From Chryseobacterium salivictor (lineage in GTDB: Bacteria; Bacteroidota; Bacteroidia; Flavobacteriales; Weeksellaceae): a stretch of DNA of 64,000 nt. The notes under the pieces were generated by a model, which saw only the letters and a program-made list of their open reading frames with translations, had not been told where the DNA came from and did not search any database. The position numbers were made by a program, and so were the translations under genes. The DNA is taken from the NCBI RefSeq assembly GCF_004359195.1, contig NZ_CP037954.1, positions 1,550,001-1,614,000 on the forward strand, in the 5' to 3' direction. This document shows positions 16,301-58,918 of this stretch, piece by piece. The first letter of the stretch is position 1. Each line of letters begins with the position of its first letter.

Positions 16301-17606
16301 TTCCCGTTCAACAGAATTCCGTTTGGTAGCAGACAATGCTGCAAGAACGCCGTTGATGGTTGCCAATATTCCTTATGGATCTGAATTGGCGGTGAAACCG
16401 GGAGATAAAGTACTAAAAGGAGATTTAATCTGTAAGTGGGATCCGTATAATGCGGTAATCATCGCTGAATCTGCAGGTAAGATCGAATATGAAGACATTA
16501 TTCAGGGTATTTCATTCTCACTGGAGATTGATGAGCAGACCGGTTTCGAAGAGAAAGTAATTTCTGAATCCAGAAACAAGAAAGCCGTACCAACCCTGAA
16601 AGTTGTGGATTCTAAAGGAGTTGAGCAAAAAGCATACAACTTACCGGTAGGAGCACACATCATGGTCAACGATGGTGAGAAAATTAAGGCCGGTAAAGTA
16701 ATGATCAAGATTCCAAGAAAATCTGCTAAATCAGGAGATATTACAGGGGGTCTACCGAGAGTTACCGAATTGTTCGAAGCGAGAAATCCTTCAAACCCTG
16801 CGGTAGTTACGGAAATCGACGGAGTGGTATCTTACGGTAAAATCAAAAGAGGTAACCGTGAGTTGATCGTAGAAGCAAAAACCGGCGAAATCACTAAATA
16901 TTTAGTGAAATTATCCAACCAGATTTTGGTTCAGGAAAATGACTTCGTAAGAGCTGGATCACCATTATCAAATGGATCTACCACACCGGATGACATCTTG
17001 AAAATTAAAGGGCCAACTGCCGTACAGGAATATTTGGTGAATGAAATTCAGGAAGTTTACCGTCTGCAAGGGGTGAAAATCGATGATAAACACTTTGAAA
17101 TTATTGTGCGTCAGATGATGACCAAAGTTTCAATTGTTGATGGTGGAGATACTCAGTTCTTAGAAGGTGCACTGGAACATAAAGGGGATTTCTTAGAAGA
17201 AAACAACCGCGTGTTCGGTCTTAAAGTAGTTGTGGAAGCCGGTGATTCGAAAGAATTCAAACCAGGTCAAATGATTACCACCAAAGAATTAAGAGATGAG
17301 AACTCTAAACTGAGACGCGAGGATCTGGCTTTAGTAGAAGTTCGTGACGCACTTCCAGCAACCGCAACACCGGTATTGCAGGGAATTACAAGAGCGGCGC
17401 TACAAACCAAATCATTCATGTCTGCAGCCTCTTTCCAGGAAACAACGAAAGTATTGAACGAAGCGGCAGTTTCAGGAAAAGTAGATTACCTGAGCGGTCT
17501 GAAAGAAAACGTAATTGTAGGACACAGAATTCCTGCAGGTACCGGTCTGAAAGACTACCAAAACGTGATCGTGGGTTCTAAAAAAGAATTCGAAGACATT
17601 AATTAA
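13341..17606 (+). CDS. rpoC: DNA-directed RNA polymerase subunit beta'
   Basis: A 1421-residue beta' subunit. The N-terminal zinc site has [20 protein letters not shown], and the catalytic Mg-binding [12 protein letters not shown] lies near residue 472. The second zinc site [16 protein letters not shown] and the trigger-loop region [16 protein letters not shown] follow. Complete, with no long lineage insertions obvious by eye. The stop codon is followed at once by a GATAGA-type inverted repeat rather than a classical terminator. Confidence 0.99.
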
Positions 17607-17608
17607 GA

Positions 17609-17717
17609 CGGATAGATAATAGATGGATAGATAATAGACAGATAGATCATAATATGTTTCTATCGTCTATTAGTCTATCATCCAAAAGTCTATTATCTAA
17701 AAGTCTATCATCTAAAA
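17609..17717. repeat. GATAGA-type inverted repeat after rpoC
   Basis: The left arm (17609-17648) is built of GATAGATAATAGA-like units and the right arm (about 17653-17717) of TCTATTATCTAAAAG-like units. The arms are complementary and can fold into a long hairpin between rpoC and the DUF3467 gene. Related strings occur at 46833-46910, 47107-47180, 56164-56196 and 58798-58853. Confidence 0.8.
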
Positions 17718-18984: not shown

Positions 18985-19447
18985 TTTTGAAGACTTTTTA
19001 AAATCAAACTTTTGCGCGTTTTGCGGTTTGAAAAAATAAATATCAAAAAAGCGTAACGTAACAATTTATAATGTGAACTTAAAAACGCAATATGTTCCAT
19101 CTTTAAATTAAACTTTTGCGCCTTTTGTGGTTTAAAAAAATAAATATCAAAAGAGCGCAACGTAACAATTTATAATGTGAACTTAAAAACACAATATGTT
19201 CCATCTTTAAATTAAACTTTTGCGCCTTTTGTGGTTTAAAAAAATAAATATCAAAAGAGCGCAACGTAACAATTTATAATGTGAACTTAAAAACGCAATA
19301 TGTTCCATCTTTAAATTAAACTTTTGCGCCTTTTGTGGTTTAAAAAAATAAATATCAAAAGAGCGCAACGTAACAATTTATAATGTGAACTTAAAAACGC
19401 AATATGTTCTATCTTTAAATTAAACTTTTGTGACTTTTGTGGTTTAT
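18985..19447 (-). repeat. 104-bp tandem repeat array (about 4.4 copies)
   Basis: Equivalent positions recur at 19097, 19201, 19305 and 19409, an exact 104-base period; the first copy (from about 18990) is the most diverged and the last is partial. Each unit carries, on the minus strand, the dispersed head CCACAAAAGGCGCAAAAG followed by a tail with AAAGATGGAAC. Units differ by only a few substitutions. Together with its flanks it fills the 580 bases between the nuclease gene and the hydrolase gene. No gene is supported inside. Confidence 0.95.
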
Positions 19448-19461
19448 AAAAAATTAGCCCT

Positions 19462-29932: not shown

Positions 29933-30240
29933 ATTTGCATAAAATTTGGATACGTACAGAATAAATATTTTAGAGCCTGTGTAAATTTATTTTAAAAACC
30001 ACAAAAGACGCAAAAGTGATATTTTTTTAATTGTTTCAAAGATCAAAAAAGAGAAGTGTCCTAAAAAAGCTGTCTTTTTTGCTCTTTTGGAGATTTTATT
30101 TTTAGATTTTCTTTTGTGTCTTTAGCAGTTTAATTCTTTTTAAACAAACTCTGAATGAATGTCTTTTTTTCTATTAAAGAGATTGGTTCTTTGAATAATT
30201 TTCAGGCTAAAAATTTAATTCTATTCCTTATCTTATCGCA
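29933..30240. other. Divergent intergenic region with repeat fragments
   Basis: About 308 bases between the divergent DUF4403 and LLM oxidoreductase genes. AGAGCCTGTGTAAATTT at 29972-29988 resembles the terminal repeat of the MITE-like element at 59488-59663. A CAAAAG-head repeat (CCACAAAAGACGCAAAAG) is at 29999-30016. No exact TAnnTTTG promoter was seen for the downstream gene. Confidence 0.6.
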
Positions 30241-34311: not shown

Positions 34312-34508
34312 AAAAAGTAAACCACAAAAGGCACAAAAGTTTTTACCATTTAGAAGATTAAAAAATTTCGTGTTAAAGTTTAAAGAAGGTTAATGCAAAA
34401 GCGCTTTACTTATTTGAACTTTAAAAGGAGTGTTTTTATACTTTCCCCTTTTGTTACTTTTGTGGTTGGAAAATTCAATAATAATTTTTTGTCATGTAGT
34501 AATTTTTT

Positions 34509-35556: not shown

Positions 35557-36094
35557 AAACCACAAAAGTCACAAAAGTTTCCTATAAAGATGGAATTGAC
35601 TTCGTTTTAAAGTGAAAATAATTTATAGCAACTTACTGTAATGCTCATTTACAAGCGTTTCCTGTCCTTCGTGGTATATGTTTTTTACATTAAAATTAAT
35701 TAAAATTCCTTTTGGAACTTTTAAAATAGCCATGTAATTCAAAAGTTTTGCCCGATGTATGTCATCAAAGCTTTTTACCGATTTTATTTCTAACACGATA
35801 ATGTCCTCAATTAAAAAATCACATTTGTAGTCGCAATTCAATTTCTTGCTTTTGTAGAAGATTTCTGTTTGCAGTTCCGATTTATAATTTATTCCCCTTA
35901 AAGTAAATTCTTCTTTTAATGCTTCATGATAAACCTTTTCTAACAAGCCTGGACCTAAGATTTTGTGGACTTCTATACAAGCCCCATTTATTTTATAGGT
36001 TAAGTCTGTAAGATAAGATTGCGTTATCATTATTTGAACTATAAAAAGTTTTAAAGATACTTAAAGAATAAAACTTTTGTGACTTTTGTGGTTA
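35557..36094. mobile_element. GxxExxY gene bracketed by a 23-bp inverted repeat
   Basis: A dispersed CAAAAG-head repeat lies on each side of the GxxExxY gene in opposite orientations: CCACAAAAGTCACAAAAG at 35560-35577 and its reverse complement CTTTTGTGACTTTTGTGG at 36074-36091. The match covers about 23 bases (35558-35580 with 36071-36093). The 538-base unit contains nothing else. No clear target-site duplication is visible. Calling it mobile is an inference; similar inverted pairs without a gene are at 34320/34447, 40533/40794 and 58021/58137. Confidence 0.35.
35623..36030 (-). CDS. GxxExxY protein (PD-(D/E)XK_3-like)
   Basis: A 135-residue protein of the GxxExxY family. The name motif is G28-L-L-E31-K-V-Y34. 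A PD-(D/E)XK-type core follows: D71 in CDFLIEDIIVLEIKSVK with E81 and K83, spacing as in nuclease-fold active sites, with IVLEIK forming the central strand. Biochemical activity is unknown for the family, which from general knowledge is often multi-copy in Bacteroidota genomes. It is bracketed by a near-perfect inverted pair of a dispersed repeat and otherwise sits alone between hemH and the Nfu gene. Confidence 0.88.
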   Translation of the reverse strand: MITQSYLTDLTYKINGACIEVHKILGPGLLEKVYHEALKEEFTLRGINYKSELQTEIFYKSKKLNCDYKCDFLIEDIIVLEIKSVKSFDDIHRAKLLNYMAILKVPKGILINFNVKNIYHEGQETLVNEHYSKLL

Positions 36095-40526: not shown

Positions 40527-41016
40527 GAAGTTAAACCACAAAAGTCACAAAAGTTTTATTGTTACTCAAGAAAATATAATTCTTCTGAAAAGTTTACAAA
40601 ATTTTCAATGAATTTTATAGTGATTTTCACCATTAACATTTAATGAAGAAATTAAGTTCATTTAGAATTCCTTCGCACAAATCTTCATGCACTTTTCAGC
40701 AGCTTAAAAACTTCAACACAAGTTTGTGACTGTGTGGTTGAAAAAATAATTTACAGCAACTTTTGCGAACTTTTGAAAGCCTTATTAAAATATAACTTTT
40801 GCGCCTTTTGCGGTTAAAAAAAATGAAAATTCGCAGCAGAAATTGAACCATTAAGATATTAAGAATAATTAAGAGAACACTCCTTTTAGCGGTCAATTCT
40901 TAATCTTCTTTAATACCTTAATGTTTAAAAAATTTCATTCAATTCTTCAAGCTACTTTTAATAAAAATTTTTAAACTTACAATAATCTCAATTCCTGAAA
41001 TCCGTGAGCTTACTTT
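40527..41016. repeat. Intergenic region with inverted CAAAAG-head repeats
   Basis: The 490 bases between the convergent helicase and lnt genes hold a head repeat in plus orientation at 40533-40557 and a longer copy in minus orientation at about 40751-40817 (TTTTGCGCCTTTTGCGG end). The minus copy keeps the full roughly 60-base module seen in the 207-bp array. Facing ATTAAGATATTAAG and TCTTAATCTTCTTTAA strings follow at 40850-40925. No gene is supported. Confidence 0.8.
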
Positions 41017-42744: not shown

Positions 42745-43187
42745 TTTTGCCACGGATGCATGGGTTTTTTACTGTTTGGAGAAAATAGTCGTGCATTCGT
42801 GGCTTTAATCATTTTTGCCACGGATGCACGAATTTTTTTACTGTTTTGAGGAATGAAATTATTCGTAAAGGTCCATTTTGTTTAACTGGAAATTAAAATG
42901 ATTTGAGAAAACATTCGTGCATTCGTGGCTTTTATTTTTGCGATGAATAAACGGGTTTATTTTGATATAATTTATTCGTGCATTCGTGGCTTTAATCATT
43001 TTTGCCACGGATGCACGAATTTTTTTACTGTTTTGAGGAATGAAATTATTCGTAAAGGTCCATTTTGTTTAACTGGAAATTAAAATGATTTGAGAAAACA
43101 TTCGTGCATTCGTGGCTTTTATTTTTGCGATGAATACACGGGTTTATTTTGATGTAATTTATTCGTGCATTCGTGGCTGATGTCCTT
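42745..43187. repeat. 187-bp tandem repeat (about 2 copies) of GCATTCGTGGC hairpins
   Basis: The string GCCACGGATGCACGAAT recurs at 42817 and 43004, a 187-base period, with the intervening sequence nearly identical (differences such as AATAAACGGG versus AATACACGGG). Units end with ATTCGTGCATTCGTGGC, the reverse complement of the opening string, so each holds strong hairpins. A truncated unit precedes at about 42745-42800. The array occupies most of the 514-base gap between lnt and folB. Confidence 0.92.
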
Positions 43188-46811: not shown

Positions 46812-47178
46812 TGGTTTTTTAATTTTTGAGAAGACGGATAGATGATAGACGGATAGATAATAGATGATAGACTGTTAGATAATAGATGATAGACTGATAG
46901 ATGATTATGCATCTCCGATTTTGGTCATGATTTTAATTTTTTAACGCAAAGTAATATAATGTTTTTATTTATAAATGCCCTGTTTTTAGCTTTTTTTAAG
47001 TTCGAAAAGGGGCATTTGACTTCGTCGAATCTTTGTTGTCTCCACTTACTAAAGTTCGTAAAGATTTTACAATTACTTCTAATTACGGCAATCAATGCTG
47101 TGGTCTTTCATCTATCCGTCTATCGTCTATTATCTATCCGTCTATTATCTAATATCTTCTAGTCTATTATCTTTTAGT
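46812..47178. repeat. yicC-gmk intergenic region with facing GATAGA repeats
   Basis: GATAGATGATAGACGG-type strings at 46833-46910 face complementary CTATCCGTCTATTATC-type strings at 47107-47180, enclosing about 200 bases. The right-hand array supplies the TAG stop codon of yicC. The enclosed part includes GGCATTTGACTTCGTCGAATC (about 47011-47031), also found at 56962-56982. No gene is supported. Confidence 0.8.
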
Positions 47179-48036
47179 CTACAATACGTTAAGCGTCTGT
47201 TCCTTTATTTTTTCCAGATCATCTTTCATCATGACCACGAGTTTTTGAATTTCTGCGTGGTTGGCTTTGGAGCCGAGGGTATTGATTTCTCTGCCGATTT
47301 CCTGAGAAATAAACCCGAGTTTTTTGCCGTTGCAGCTTTCTTCAATCATTACTTCCAGATAATATTTTAAATGTTGGGTAAGCCGGACTTTTTCTTCAGC
47401 GATATCCAGTTTTTCAGTATAATAAGCCATTTCCTGATAGAAACGGGTTTCGTCGATCTGATCAAATTCGTTGAGTGATTTTCGGTAGCGTTCTTTTACC
47501 GCATCCATTCTCACTTCTTCGTAAGGTTTTATCTGATGGAGGCAGTTCTCAATTTTGTTGATATTCCGGTGCAGTTCTTCCTGTAGAATTTCACCTTCTA
47601 TCCGTCGGAAATTGTCAAATTTCGTTAAAGCTTCTTCTAATAACTCGATTAAAAAAATCCATTCGTCATCATTGAGTTCGTCGCTTTTGGAAGAAATGGC
47701 TTCCGGCATTCTCACCGCCATTTTCAGATATTCGAAATCGGGACCGTCTCCGGCCACTTTTTTCAGTTCCTGCATATACGCCTGTACCAGATCGTGATTT
47801 ATATTCACATCACTGGCGTTATTGAGGGATTCGATATTCACGTAGCAATCAACTTTCCCGCGGAGAACCCGGTCGTTGAGTATTTTGCGCATTTCGAATT
47901 CTTTCTCTTTATATCTTAATGGGATTTTGATGTTTAAATCAAAAGATTTGCTATTGAGGGATTTAATGTCGACGGTTATTTTTTTACCTTCGAAAACTCC
48001 TTCGCTTCTGCCGAAGCCGGTCATGGATAAAATCAT
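47179..48036 (-). CDS. yicC: YicC/YloC family endoribonuclease
   Basis: A 285-residue protein of the YicC family, reported as a manganese-dependent endoribonuclease in other bacteria. The N-terminal MTGFGRSEG motif is at residues 5-13, then VDIKSLNSKSFDLNIKIPL, and the C-terminal DUF1732 half ends with KKLGFISQEIGREINTLGSKA and the MKDDLEKIKEQ helix. Exact -7 box TATCTTTG (minus strand, 48054-48061) lies 17 bases upstream. Placed before gmk, as usual. Confidence 0.93.
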   Translation of the reverse strand: MILSMTGFGRSEGVFEGKKITVDIKSLNSKSFDLNIKIPLRYKEKEFEMRKILNDRVLRGKVDCYVNIESLNNASDVNINHDLVQAYMQELKKVAGDGPDFEYLKMAVRMPEAISSKSDELNDDEWIFLIELLEEALTKFDNFRRIEGEILQEELHRNINKIENCLHQIKPYEEVRMDAVKERYRKSLNEFDQIDETRFYQEMAYYTEKLDIAEEKVRLTQHLKYYLEVMIEESCNGKKLGFISQEIGREINTLGSKANHAEIQKLVVMMKDDLEKIKEQTLNVL

Positions 48037-54970: not shown

Positions 54971-56136
54971 AACCACAAAAGGCGCAAAAGTTTAATTCTA
55001 AAAAGTCTTTCAAAAGGTGGCAAAAGCTTTTCTATAAAAAAATGCCACGAATACACGAATTCGTATGTTACCGATAACATTTATTCGTGCATTCTTCCAA
55101 GGGACAGCTTAATATTCTTAATTCCTTCATCGAATCTTAATGGTTCAATTGCTGCTGATGATTTTCAATTTCTCATAACCGCAAAAGACGCAAAAGTTTA
55201 ATTCTAAAAAGTCTTTCAAAAGGTGGCAAAAGCTTTTCTATAAAAAATGCCACGAATACACGAATTTTTCTGTTACCGATAACATTTATTCGTGCATTCT
55301 TCCAAGGGACAGCTTAATATTCTTAATTCCTTCATCGAATCTTAATGGTTCAATTGCTGCTGATGATTTTCAATTTCTCATAACCGCAAAAGACGCAAAA
55401 GTTTAATTCTAAAAAGTCTTTCAAAAGGTGGCAAAAGCTTTTCTATAAAAAAAAATGCCACGAATACACGAATTTTTCTGTTACCGATAACATTTATTCG
55501 TGCATTCTTCCAAGGGACAGCTTAATATTCTTAATTCCTTCATCGAATCTTAATGGTTCAATTGCTGCTGATGATTTTCAATTTCTCATAACCGCAAAAG
55601 ACGCAAAAGTTTAATTCTAAAAAGTCTTTCAAAAGGTGGCAAAAGCTTTTCTATAAAAAAAAATGCCACGAATACACGAATTTTTCTGTTACCGATAACA
55701 TTTATTCGTGCATTCTTCCAAGGGACAGCTTAATATTCTTAATTCCTTCATCGAATCTTAATGGTTCAATTGCTGCTGATGATTTTCAATTTCTCATAAC
55801 CGCAAAAGACGCAAAAGTTTAATTCTAAAAAGTCTTTCAAAAGGTGGCAAAAGCTTTTCTATAAAAAAAAATGCCACGAATACACGAATTCGTATGTTAC
55901 CGATAACATTTATTCGTGCATTCTTCCAAGGGACAGCTTAATATTCTTAATTCCTTCATCGAATCTTAATGGTTCAATTGCTGCTGATGATTTTCAATTT
56001 CTCATAACCGCAAAAGACGCAAAAGTTTAATTCTAAAAAGTCTTTCAAAAGGTGGCAAAAGCTTTTCTAAAAAAAATGCCACGAATACACGAATTCGTAT
56101 GTTACCGCTAACATTTATTCGTGCATTCGTGGCAAT
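54971..56136 (+). repeat. Tandem array of six roughly 207-bp units
   Basis: The marker ATTCTAAAAAGTCTTTC recurs at 54995, 55201, 55406, 55614, 55822 and 56030, spacing 205-208. Each unit has a CAAAAG-head module, a hairpin ATACACGAAT ... ATTCGTGCATTC around TGTTACCGATAACA, and a segment TTAATATTCTTAATTCC. Size differences come from an A-run of 6-8 bases. Units 1, 5 and 6 have CGTATG where units 2-4 have TTTCTG, so the array was not made by one simple expansion. Only the last unit closes its hairpin with GCATTCGTGGC. Confidence 0.97.
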
Positions 56137-57865: not shown

Positions 57866-58228
57866 GCTTTACGAGCGCAAATTTATTAAAATTAATCGGC
57901 TTTTGAAATTTTCTTATTTTTGAAGAGTTATGAGCAAAGTCATGAGCCCGGGTGAAAGAGATTTGCTACTTTTACATAGGTTTTTAATAAAGGATCTGAG
58001 ATTTCAAACCATCAGGATTTAACCGCAAAAGGGACAAAAGATCATTGCAGAAAAAGTTCTTCAAAAGAATGCCGAAAATGGAACCACTTTTAACAGGGCT
58101 TCTTTTGCAGACTATTGATTTACTTTTATTAAAATTAAACTTTTGCATCTTTTGCGGTGAAAAAATACAGCGATCTCAAGATTGAAACCAAATCCATTAA
58201 ACGAATTTTTTAATCAATATTAAATAGT
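57866..58228. other. Divergent intergenic region with inverted CAAAAG heads
   Basis: The gap holds the DUF3822 promoter (57878-57885), a CAAAAG-head module in plus orientation from 58021 (with the longer tail CTTCAAAAGAATGCC) and a minus-oriented head at 58137-58160, enclosing about 95 bases. No promoter match was found for the DUF6370 gene. Confidence 0.7.
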
Positions 58229-58531: not shown

Positions 58532-58918
58532 GGAGCTGCTGGGTGAGGGATGTTAGGTGTTTGATGTAGGATGTGCGGTGCAGGATGCAAGGTGCAAGGA
58601 TGCAGACAATTGGTGCAGGAGGTTTGATGGTAATACTCAATCATCAATTCATAAAGTTATTCACGCATTCACTAAATTCACCAAATTCACTCATTGCGTG
58701 ATGTAGGATGCAAGATGTTTATGATGGGTGCAGGATGCAAGGGTGCAAGGTGCAAGGATGCAGGCTGTAATGGGTAGTAGCGAATAGTTAATTTTGCGTC
58801 TATCGTCTATCGTCTATCGTCTATCGTCTATCGTCTATCGTCTATCGTCTATTGTCCAACATCCAAACATCCAAACATCCAAACATTCATCATCCATCAT
58901 CCATCACCCAGCATCCAA
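58532..58918. repeat. GGATGCAAGGTGC-type strings and a GTCTATC heptamer array
   Basis: 58535-58765 is rich in GGTGCAAGGATGCAGG-like words with short CATTCACTAAATTCACC words inside. 58798-58846 holds seven perfect tandem copies of GTCTATC, then one GTCTATT. 58859-58919 continues with ATCCAAACATCCAAACATCC and ATCATCCATC words, the approximate reverse complement of the first part, running right up to the Smr gene stop. No gene is supported. Confidence 0.85.

Follow-up and report, generated by a model that had tools for sequence, protein, structure and literature searches.

The window, by which we mean the whole 64-kb stretch of DNA analysed, contains a small GxxExxY nuclease gene enclosed exactly by inverted arrays of a short repeated word, and the gene and its arms very probably form one small mobile unit. 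Our overall reading, to which we assign a probability of roughly 0.6, is that of a mobile unit with word-array ends and a Cas4/RecB-like nuclease that would itself move the unit. Computation supports the bracket, the borders of empty sites, gene-free forms, purifying selection on the gene, and a history of the element that is partly independent of that of its flanks.

The unit in the window

The nuclease gene lies between a ferrochelatase gene and a NifU-like gene, and all three are on the minus strand. Its product matches TIGR04256 (E 2.4e-37, 127.9 bits, cut-off 35) and PF13366 PDDEXK_3 (E 6.6e-36, 123.7 bits, cut-off 22), and PF13366 was the sole Pfam match at E ≤ 0.001. The PD-(D/E)XK_3-like identity proposed in a preliminary description of this DNA therefore stands, with both profiles far above their cut-offs. 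The same description had placed a 23-base inverted pair exactly around the gene: the two outer arms are reverse complements without a mismatch (23 of 23), and shuffling the 250-bp flanks 100 times gave perfect matches of at most 13. In each arm the 8-bp word CACAAAAG occurs twice, at a spacing of 9 bp, and the gene with both arms measures approximately 0.54 kb (Table 1).

Table 1. Position and strand of the nuclease unit and of related repeats, numbered within the window.
Feature	Position	Strand	Remarks
GxxExxY gene	35623..36030	-	135 aa, PD-(D/E)XK_3 nuclease; profile matches, conserved residues and structure model
Outer arm downstream of gene	35558..35580	+	AACCACAAAAGTCACAAAAGTTT
Outer arm upstream of gene	36071..36093	-	exact reverse complement of the 35558..35580 arm
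Gene-free inverted pair, 144 bp	34322..34465 (arms 34322-34339/34448-34465)	.	window word
Gene-free inverted pair, 278 bp	40536..40813 (arms 40536-40553/40796-40813)	.	window word
Gene-free inverted pair, 135 bp	58023..58157 (arms 58023-58040/58140-58157)	.	CGCAAAAG variant and inner word pair
Gene-free inverted pair, 130 bp, fourth in window	29999..30128 (starts 29999/30111)	.	1 and 3 mismatches
Tandem array, 104 bp x 4.4	19001..19454	.	one CACAAAAG/CGCAAAAG arm per unit
Tandem array, 208 bp x 5.6, chimeric units	54971..56128	.	CGCAAAAG end, CACGAAT words, ATTAAG-type end

Gene-free copies of the window word

With up to 3 mismatches allowed, the window word occurred 24 times in the window against 0.38 expected, and a chance origin of these repeats was ruled out on this count. 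All three gene-free inverted pairs named earlier were recovered, their arms differing from CCACAAAAGNCACAAAAG at 0-3 positions, and a fourth pair was added. Across the genome the pattern CCRCAAAAGNCRCAAAAG (≤2 mismatches) gave 104 matches, compared with 17 for the reversed pattern. Among the 100 matches listed, neighbours no more than 600 bp apart were arranged head-out (+ -) 19 times and in the order (- +) once. Seventeen of these 19 head-out pairs, at 58-278 bp, are too short to hold the gene, and 13 of the 17 measure 120-145 bp. The inner word pair of CGCAAAAG-type gene-bearing units was found in four of the nine gene-free pairs inspected by sequence. Gene-free pairs of similar size thus share their ends with a gene-bearing element, as in MITE-like derivatives. 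The idea that the pairs are short derivatives of the unit gains from their number and from the inner words that some of them share with gene-bearing units, and we retain it in that qualified form.

Inverted word arrays at other GxxExxY genes

Seven GxxExxY genes are present in this 3.14-Mb genome, and by eye all seven lie between inverted arms of a repeated 7-9 bp word. The arm words are CACAAAAG, CGCAAAAG, CACGAAT, CACATTAG, CTCGAAT, ATTAAG and CGCAAAG; the window word brackets just two of the genes, as CACAAAAG at L003 and as the variant CGCAAAAG at L004. The expectation that a single repeat type would mark GxxExxY genes was not borne out, since the remaining five have other words, and one fixed boundary repeat for all such genes was rejected because the words differ between the seven loci.

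To score the bracket, the 250 bp on one side of each gene were compared with the 250 bp on the other, and the best local inverted match was taken, with a threshold of 13. Six of the seven loci in this genome reached it, and L002 scored 12.5. The family is found in 33 of 36 genus genomes and, in a sample of 148 genomes from the window's phylum, in 74. In the genus, 76 of 96 loci scored at least 13, compared with 1 of 139 neighbouring ORFs and 112 of 1133 cross-paired flanks; the set comprised 96 of 119 matches (seven from this genome, plus 29 and 60), and of the 23 left out two stood at 109-115 bits and the others were weaker. Across phyla the threshold was reached at 67 of 106 loci in an uneven sample (the best 80 of at least 577 relatives found with one peptide pattern, and 30 phylum loci), compared with 7 of 196 neighbouring ORFs and 112 of 1255 cross-paired flanks. 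Four of the original 110 cross-phyla loci were dropped at contig ends, and L265, a faulty gene call, was kept in the count. Inverted arms are therefore far commoner at the edges of GxxExxY genes than at neighbouring ORFs, as the unit proposed in the preliminary description would require.

Scores below threshold were obtained at 20 of 96 genus loci and 39 of 106 cross-phyla loci, in some of which the word is visible by eye. Among the cross-phyla loci above threshold are records labelled Nostoc, Dolichospermum, Anaerolineales, Desulfobacteraceae, Rhodospirillales and KSB1; several of these records are metagenome bins. CACAGAG, CGCAAAG and CGCAGAG are examples of the words found there. Genus loci are not independent because 94 of them collapse into 28 sites; counted by distinct site, the median score was at least 13 at 20 of the 28. 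Autocorrelation of the arms was weak, with a word period of 9 in the genus and 8-10 across phyla.

GxxExxY genes were co-oriented with both neighbours at 90 of 95 genus loci (24 of 28 sites) and at 67 of 99 loci across phyla. Ordinary small ORFs were also often co-oriented (55 of 110 in the genus, 67 of 130 across phyla), so that the excess is modest outside the genus, and a strong claim of strand bias was dropped. All ten interrupted or short copies had the same orientation, which is little informative because most share sites with intact copies.

Properties of the protein and its transcript

Residues E31, D71, E81 and K83 were conserved in at least 90% of 39 sequences, and Q95 and Y99 were likewise invariant or nearly so. 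E31 belongs to the GxxExxY motif, and as judged from the alignment the full catalytic set of a PD-(D/E)XK nuclease (E31, D71, E81-x-K83) appears to be present. The structure model of the window protein reached a pLDDT of 95.1, and its closest solved fold was that of SSO0001 (4ic1; Z 9.8, 3.2 Å over 99 residues), a Cas4 protein, suggesting a Cas4/RecB-type core. The window protein is shorter, however, at 135 aa compared with 202. Lower-ranked structure matches were Cas4 (4r5q) and lambda-type exonucleases. Foldseek gave no match to the PDB at E ≤ 0.001; by sequence the PDB likewise gave nothing at this level, the hits at E 0.25-0.76 being six S100-A8 entries and 4ic1. The PHROG search gave no match at E ≤ 0.01, and a defence library matched through weak Cas4 profiles alone (best E 7e-4).

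Copies at the same site were compared in 61 selected pairs (>75% identity, without stops, dS 0.1-1.8). The median dN/dS was 0.08 (0.03-0.18), indicating that the protein does something that selection maintains. In the predicted transcript the arms pair as a 24-bp stem enclosing the gene (z -4.35), which together with the operon position leaves room for an RNA role.

Empty, filled and remnant sites

Precise empty sites, whose comparison with filled ones had been proposed earlier, were found at the rfbB-rfbA junction in 14 of 30 genus genomes: 13 have 1 nt from stop to start codon and one has an overlap. Five genomes carry a GxxExxY gene at this junction, eight a four-helix gene, one a gene-free form of 62 bp and two another ORF; the six genus genomes outside these 30, assigned by position alone, comprise three GxxExxY, two four-helix and one empty. 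The five GxxExxY copies have mostly CGAAT arrays, and the G035 copy is without its middle. Six of the eight four-helix genes have TTGAGT arrays, and the calls in G005 and G025 are partial protein matches with other words. Among close relatives, G000 holds the nuclease, G008 the four-helix gene, and G006 and G030 are empty. Terminal inverted repeats coincide with the empty/filled borders: in L292, the arms start at the stop codon and finish some twelve bases short of the start codon, at a junction whose empty form is 1 nt wide. The gap also hosts a third kind of insertion (L298, L319), of approximately 458 bp and with an ORF beginning like a secreted protein; no word arrays were seen in the ends inspected.

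At hemH-nfu, the site of the window unit, a full-length unit was present in five of 30 genomes, one with an in-frame stop. G008 retains the ends and has lost most of the gene, G012 retains a short gene-free remnant, and 23 genomes have neither unit nor remnant. Full, internally deleted and gene-free forms of one site thus occur in different species, which supports the reading in the preliminary description. Another structured repeat (GCGCCCCGACTTGAACGGAGCTC ... AGCGGGAGTGGAAGGCGG; L069-L074) occupies this gap in several species.

The L108 site is filled in G009 and G017, has gene-free arrays in G031 and G034, and is empty in G012. No target-site duplication was seen there by eye, the homologues at this one site being too diverged to tell. 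At the L007/L125 site, a four-helix gene stands by coordinates where other genomes have GxxExxY, with both flanks in G006 and one flank in G014. Use of the same gap by both gene families is therefore clear at rfbB-rfbA and is indicated by coordinates at L007/L125. At the L006 site (L006, L036, L140), CACAAAG-like remnants directly flank units whose arms are of CACATTAG or CACATAAG, resembling an older unit into which a newer one has inserted.

History of the element and of its flanks

At the four largest shared sites, 375-bp flank pieces followed the marker nfu with rho 0.49-0.81, compared with -0.02 to 0.29 for the element gene; the control, rfbA against nfu in 26 genomes, gave 0.66. Element and flank identity at these sites correlated at -0.08, 0.58 (L030), 0.13 and 0.00. 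The value at L030 indicates linkage of element and flank there, and a correlation was also seen at L003 (0.67). At three smaller sites, not even the flanks follow nfu.

AU tests were run at three sites (L006, L004 and L030) with 7-8 genomes each, the flank alignment of L030 being possibly poor. Flank data rejected the element-gene tree at all three (p ≤ 0.004), and element data rejected the flank tree at L006 and L004 and not at L030. The nfu+rfbA tree was rejected by element data at L006 and marginally at L030, and not at L004. Flank data likewise rejected it at L006 and L030 (two of three), so that flanks are imperfect species markers. Units thus recur at the same site with a gene tree unlike the flank tree, as homing elements do. 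We read these sequence comparisons as probable movement of units between lineages into the same gap, with short-tract recombination as a weaker alternative.

Close copies had been expected to lie scattered within one genome. Instead, they are nearly always found at the same site in different species: seven of 202 pairs above 70% protein identity were at different sites. Recent movement to new gaps is rare, and there is no recent burst within genomes.

For pairs at different sites, arm matches of at least 13 were obtained in 40% at 60-70% protein identity and in 18% at 50-60%, with 3% at 30-50% and 7% below 30%. This association of word and protein gave a Mantel-like rho of 0.134, the highest of 300 permutations being 0.056. 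In 165 of the 232 same-site pairs compared at nine sites, own arms gave a better match than swapped arms. The preference was seen at divergent sites (47/55, 31/44, 27/36, 27/34 and 13/15) and not at four more uniform ones (9/19, 7/15, 4/9 and 0/5). The arms tend to go with the gene and not with the species, a tendency absent at L004.

A second family with the same architecture

Seven cross-phyla control ORFs scored at least 13; with translations read by eye, four are four-helix-like, one is a further GxxExxY gene, and the last two belong to neither family. A TIGR02436 search found five four-helix genes in this genome, all bracketed by inverted arrays of other words (including GTTCACAA, TTTGAAAT and ATAGATG) with scores of 17-24. 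Of 34 four-helix loci sampled in the genus, most of them the top match of their genome and these five among them, 21 scored at least 13, compared with 21 of 399 cross pairs as the one control. Their arms show clear autocorrelation peaks at 7 and 14. Four-helix genes are present in 36 of 36 genus genomes, and three of the 34 loci share their site with a sampled GxxExxY locus. Four-helix units behave similarly without a nuclease, so that a nuclease is not essential to such behaviour.

Comparison with known systems

RAYTs are HUH (Y1) tyrosine transposases. REP/REPIN sequences with their RAYTs (PMC3116915) are described as dispersed gene-free inverted pairs and copies enclosing one small gene, and here too a gene is enclosed by an inverted repeat pair of which gene-free copies are dispersed. 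The window unit differs in its sole enzyme, a PD-(D/E)XK nuclease with no Y1 HUH match in Pfam at E ≤ 0.001, and in its ends, which are arrays of a short word that changes from element to element. No DDE, HUH, tyrosine or serine transposase was found in the unit, whose one ORF matches PF13366 only.

In homing endonuclease genes, a nuclease gene is repeatedly present or absent at one site, and its tree is unlike that of the flanks. Unlike them, the units described here have dispersed gene-free copies and inverted word-array ends, and the same junction is also taken by a non-nuclease gene.

The nearest precedent is the Rpn/YhgA-like family of PD-(D/E)XK nucleases (PF04754), reported in several copies per genome. 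Two insertions of rpnC into one intergenic place (panC-panD) were deduced from element and flank phylogeny, and Rpn overexpression raised RecA-independent recombination (PMC5350276). As far as that account goes, the likeness extends to a multicopy PD-(D/E)XK nuclease and repeated insertion at the same intergenic place. The Pfam family differs, however, the window protein having no match to PF04754 (Transposase_31) at E ≤ 0.001, and the parts of PMC5350276 consulted make no mention of word-array inverted ends.

The 23S rRNA intervening sequence with S23p is described as having inverted repeats and an ORF for a four-helix-bundle protein, preceded by tandem heptamers; in Coxiella it is removed by RNase III, and an older, unproven proposal of mobility is cited for the S23p ORF (passages of PMC4990558). 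The four-helix units here are likewise small elements with a four-helix ORF and have arrays of 7-bp period. Their position differs, in gaps between genes rather than inside rRNA, and the window unit encodes a nuclease. By analogy, the intervening sequences may be relatives of our four-helix units.

Searches of the open-access literature, including PDDEXK_3 with inverted repeat and typical array strings, found no description of such an element among the top-ranked papers; GxxExxY is mentioned in two papers there, in one of them in the gene context of a reverse transcriptase. The unit is apparently of a kind undescribed in that literature. Since a defining feature failed for RAYT/REP, for Rpn and for classical transposases, we regard it as a new kind of unit, with a mechanism that we infer.

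Proposed mechanism and alternatives

In the proposed mechanism, the ends of a unit would be inverted arrays of a 7-8 bp word placed every 8-9 bp, and its cargo a single gene for a minimal Cas4/RecB-like PD-(D/E)XK nuclease. Units would settle in short gaps within operons, usually transcribed in the operon direction; in related species these gaps would be re-invaded, or one unit there displaced by another. Where the gene is lost, gene-free inverted pairs would remain. The nuclease may recognise the word arrays and initiate insertion or replacement by a break or nick, leaving host repair to complete it. Parallel units with a four-helix-bundle protein of S23/IVS type would have word arrays of their own and could use the same gap. 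We consider it slightly more likely than not that the nuclease reads the arms and is the driver of movement. Of the earlier proposal that gene and repeats are an autonomous unit, the unit itself gains from the arms and the empty sites; autonomy, with the nuclease as mover, is what we infer.

Gene trees that conflict with flanks at shared sites, and close relatives that nearly always occupy the same site, would also fit a homing-type element whose nuclease cuts the empty junction in a neighbouring strain or species, the filled copy serving as repair template. The arms would then play no part in movement and would form an RNA stem isolating the gene transcript, as in 23S rRNA intervening sequences; the predicted stem around the whole gene and the 24 of 28 co-oriented sites agree with this. 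A non-nuclease four-helix gene at the same junction argues against it, and it leaves unexplained that words follow protein type at different sites and that dispersed gene-free pairs have the same ends; we consider it unlikely. We think it quite improbable that other host or element machinery moves the units, the nuclease and the four-helix protein serving another purpose such as protection of the unit or host defence. Two unrelated proteins do share one architecture and at least one landing gap, purifying selection is strong (median dN/dS 0.08) and gene-free pairs exist, all of which such machinery would accommodate. However, the word varies with nuclease type at unrelated sites, which suggests that the nuclease reads the word.

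The low dN/dS (median 0.08), the operon position, and flank trees that conflict with the marker tree at two of three sites, as expected from recombination, would also suit an ordinary useful nuclease gene for repair or defence. It would be swapped between species by homologous recombination, and its repeats would be terminators or RNA processing signals; an anti-phage role has been reported for Rpn, another PD-(D/E)XK family (PMC10327210). Exchanged tracts would have to be short, however: the adjoining 375-bp flanks track the species marker and the gene hardly does. Precise empty sites are left unexplained, as are the dispersed gene-free copies that have the same ends, and weak Cas4 hits are the sole defence-library matches. 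This account has very little probability in our estimation, and a nuclease-bearing mobile unit remains our preferred reading.

A broader view is tentative, and we hold it with less than even confidence: a widespread, undescribed class of tiny elements with element-specific 7-9 bp word arrays may exist in two protein versions (GxxExxY and four-helix) that share operon gaps, the 23S rRNA intervening sequence being its rRNA-inserted four-helix branch. To our knowledge neither GxxExxY nor four-helix S23 proteins have an established role, and both are common (74 of 148 phylum genomes; 36 of 36 genus genomes). Should both prove to be versions of a single class of mobile unit, one explanation would cover a large pool of genes that now lack one, and dispersed CACAAAG/CACAGAG-type repeats would be explained too. 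The PD-(D/E)XK nuclease would become a candidate mobility enzyme, and the nature of 23S rRNA intervening sequences, an old question, would become testable. Sites that in sister species are either empty or occupied by a nuclease unit or a four-helix unit are ready substrates for assays.

Other arrays in the window

Window-word arms also occur in two tandem arrays (Table 1). The units of the longer array join three word types, suggesting that ends recombine into chimeras. A 187-bp tandem duplication at 42789-43178 contains CACGAAT words, shared with the L005 element, and is gene-free. Positions 46832-46905 and 47103-47181 form a gene-free inverted pair of GATAGAT-type 7-bp arrays; this word type also brackets the four-helix gene L271 of the same genome, and the pair is likely a gene-free relative. 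At 17606-17717, GATAGAT/CTATC arrays stand back to back as a near-palindrome without a gene. Successive runs of GTGCAAG, CGTCTAT and AACATCCA words at 58726-58886 are perhaps the ends of several four-helix-type units.
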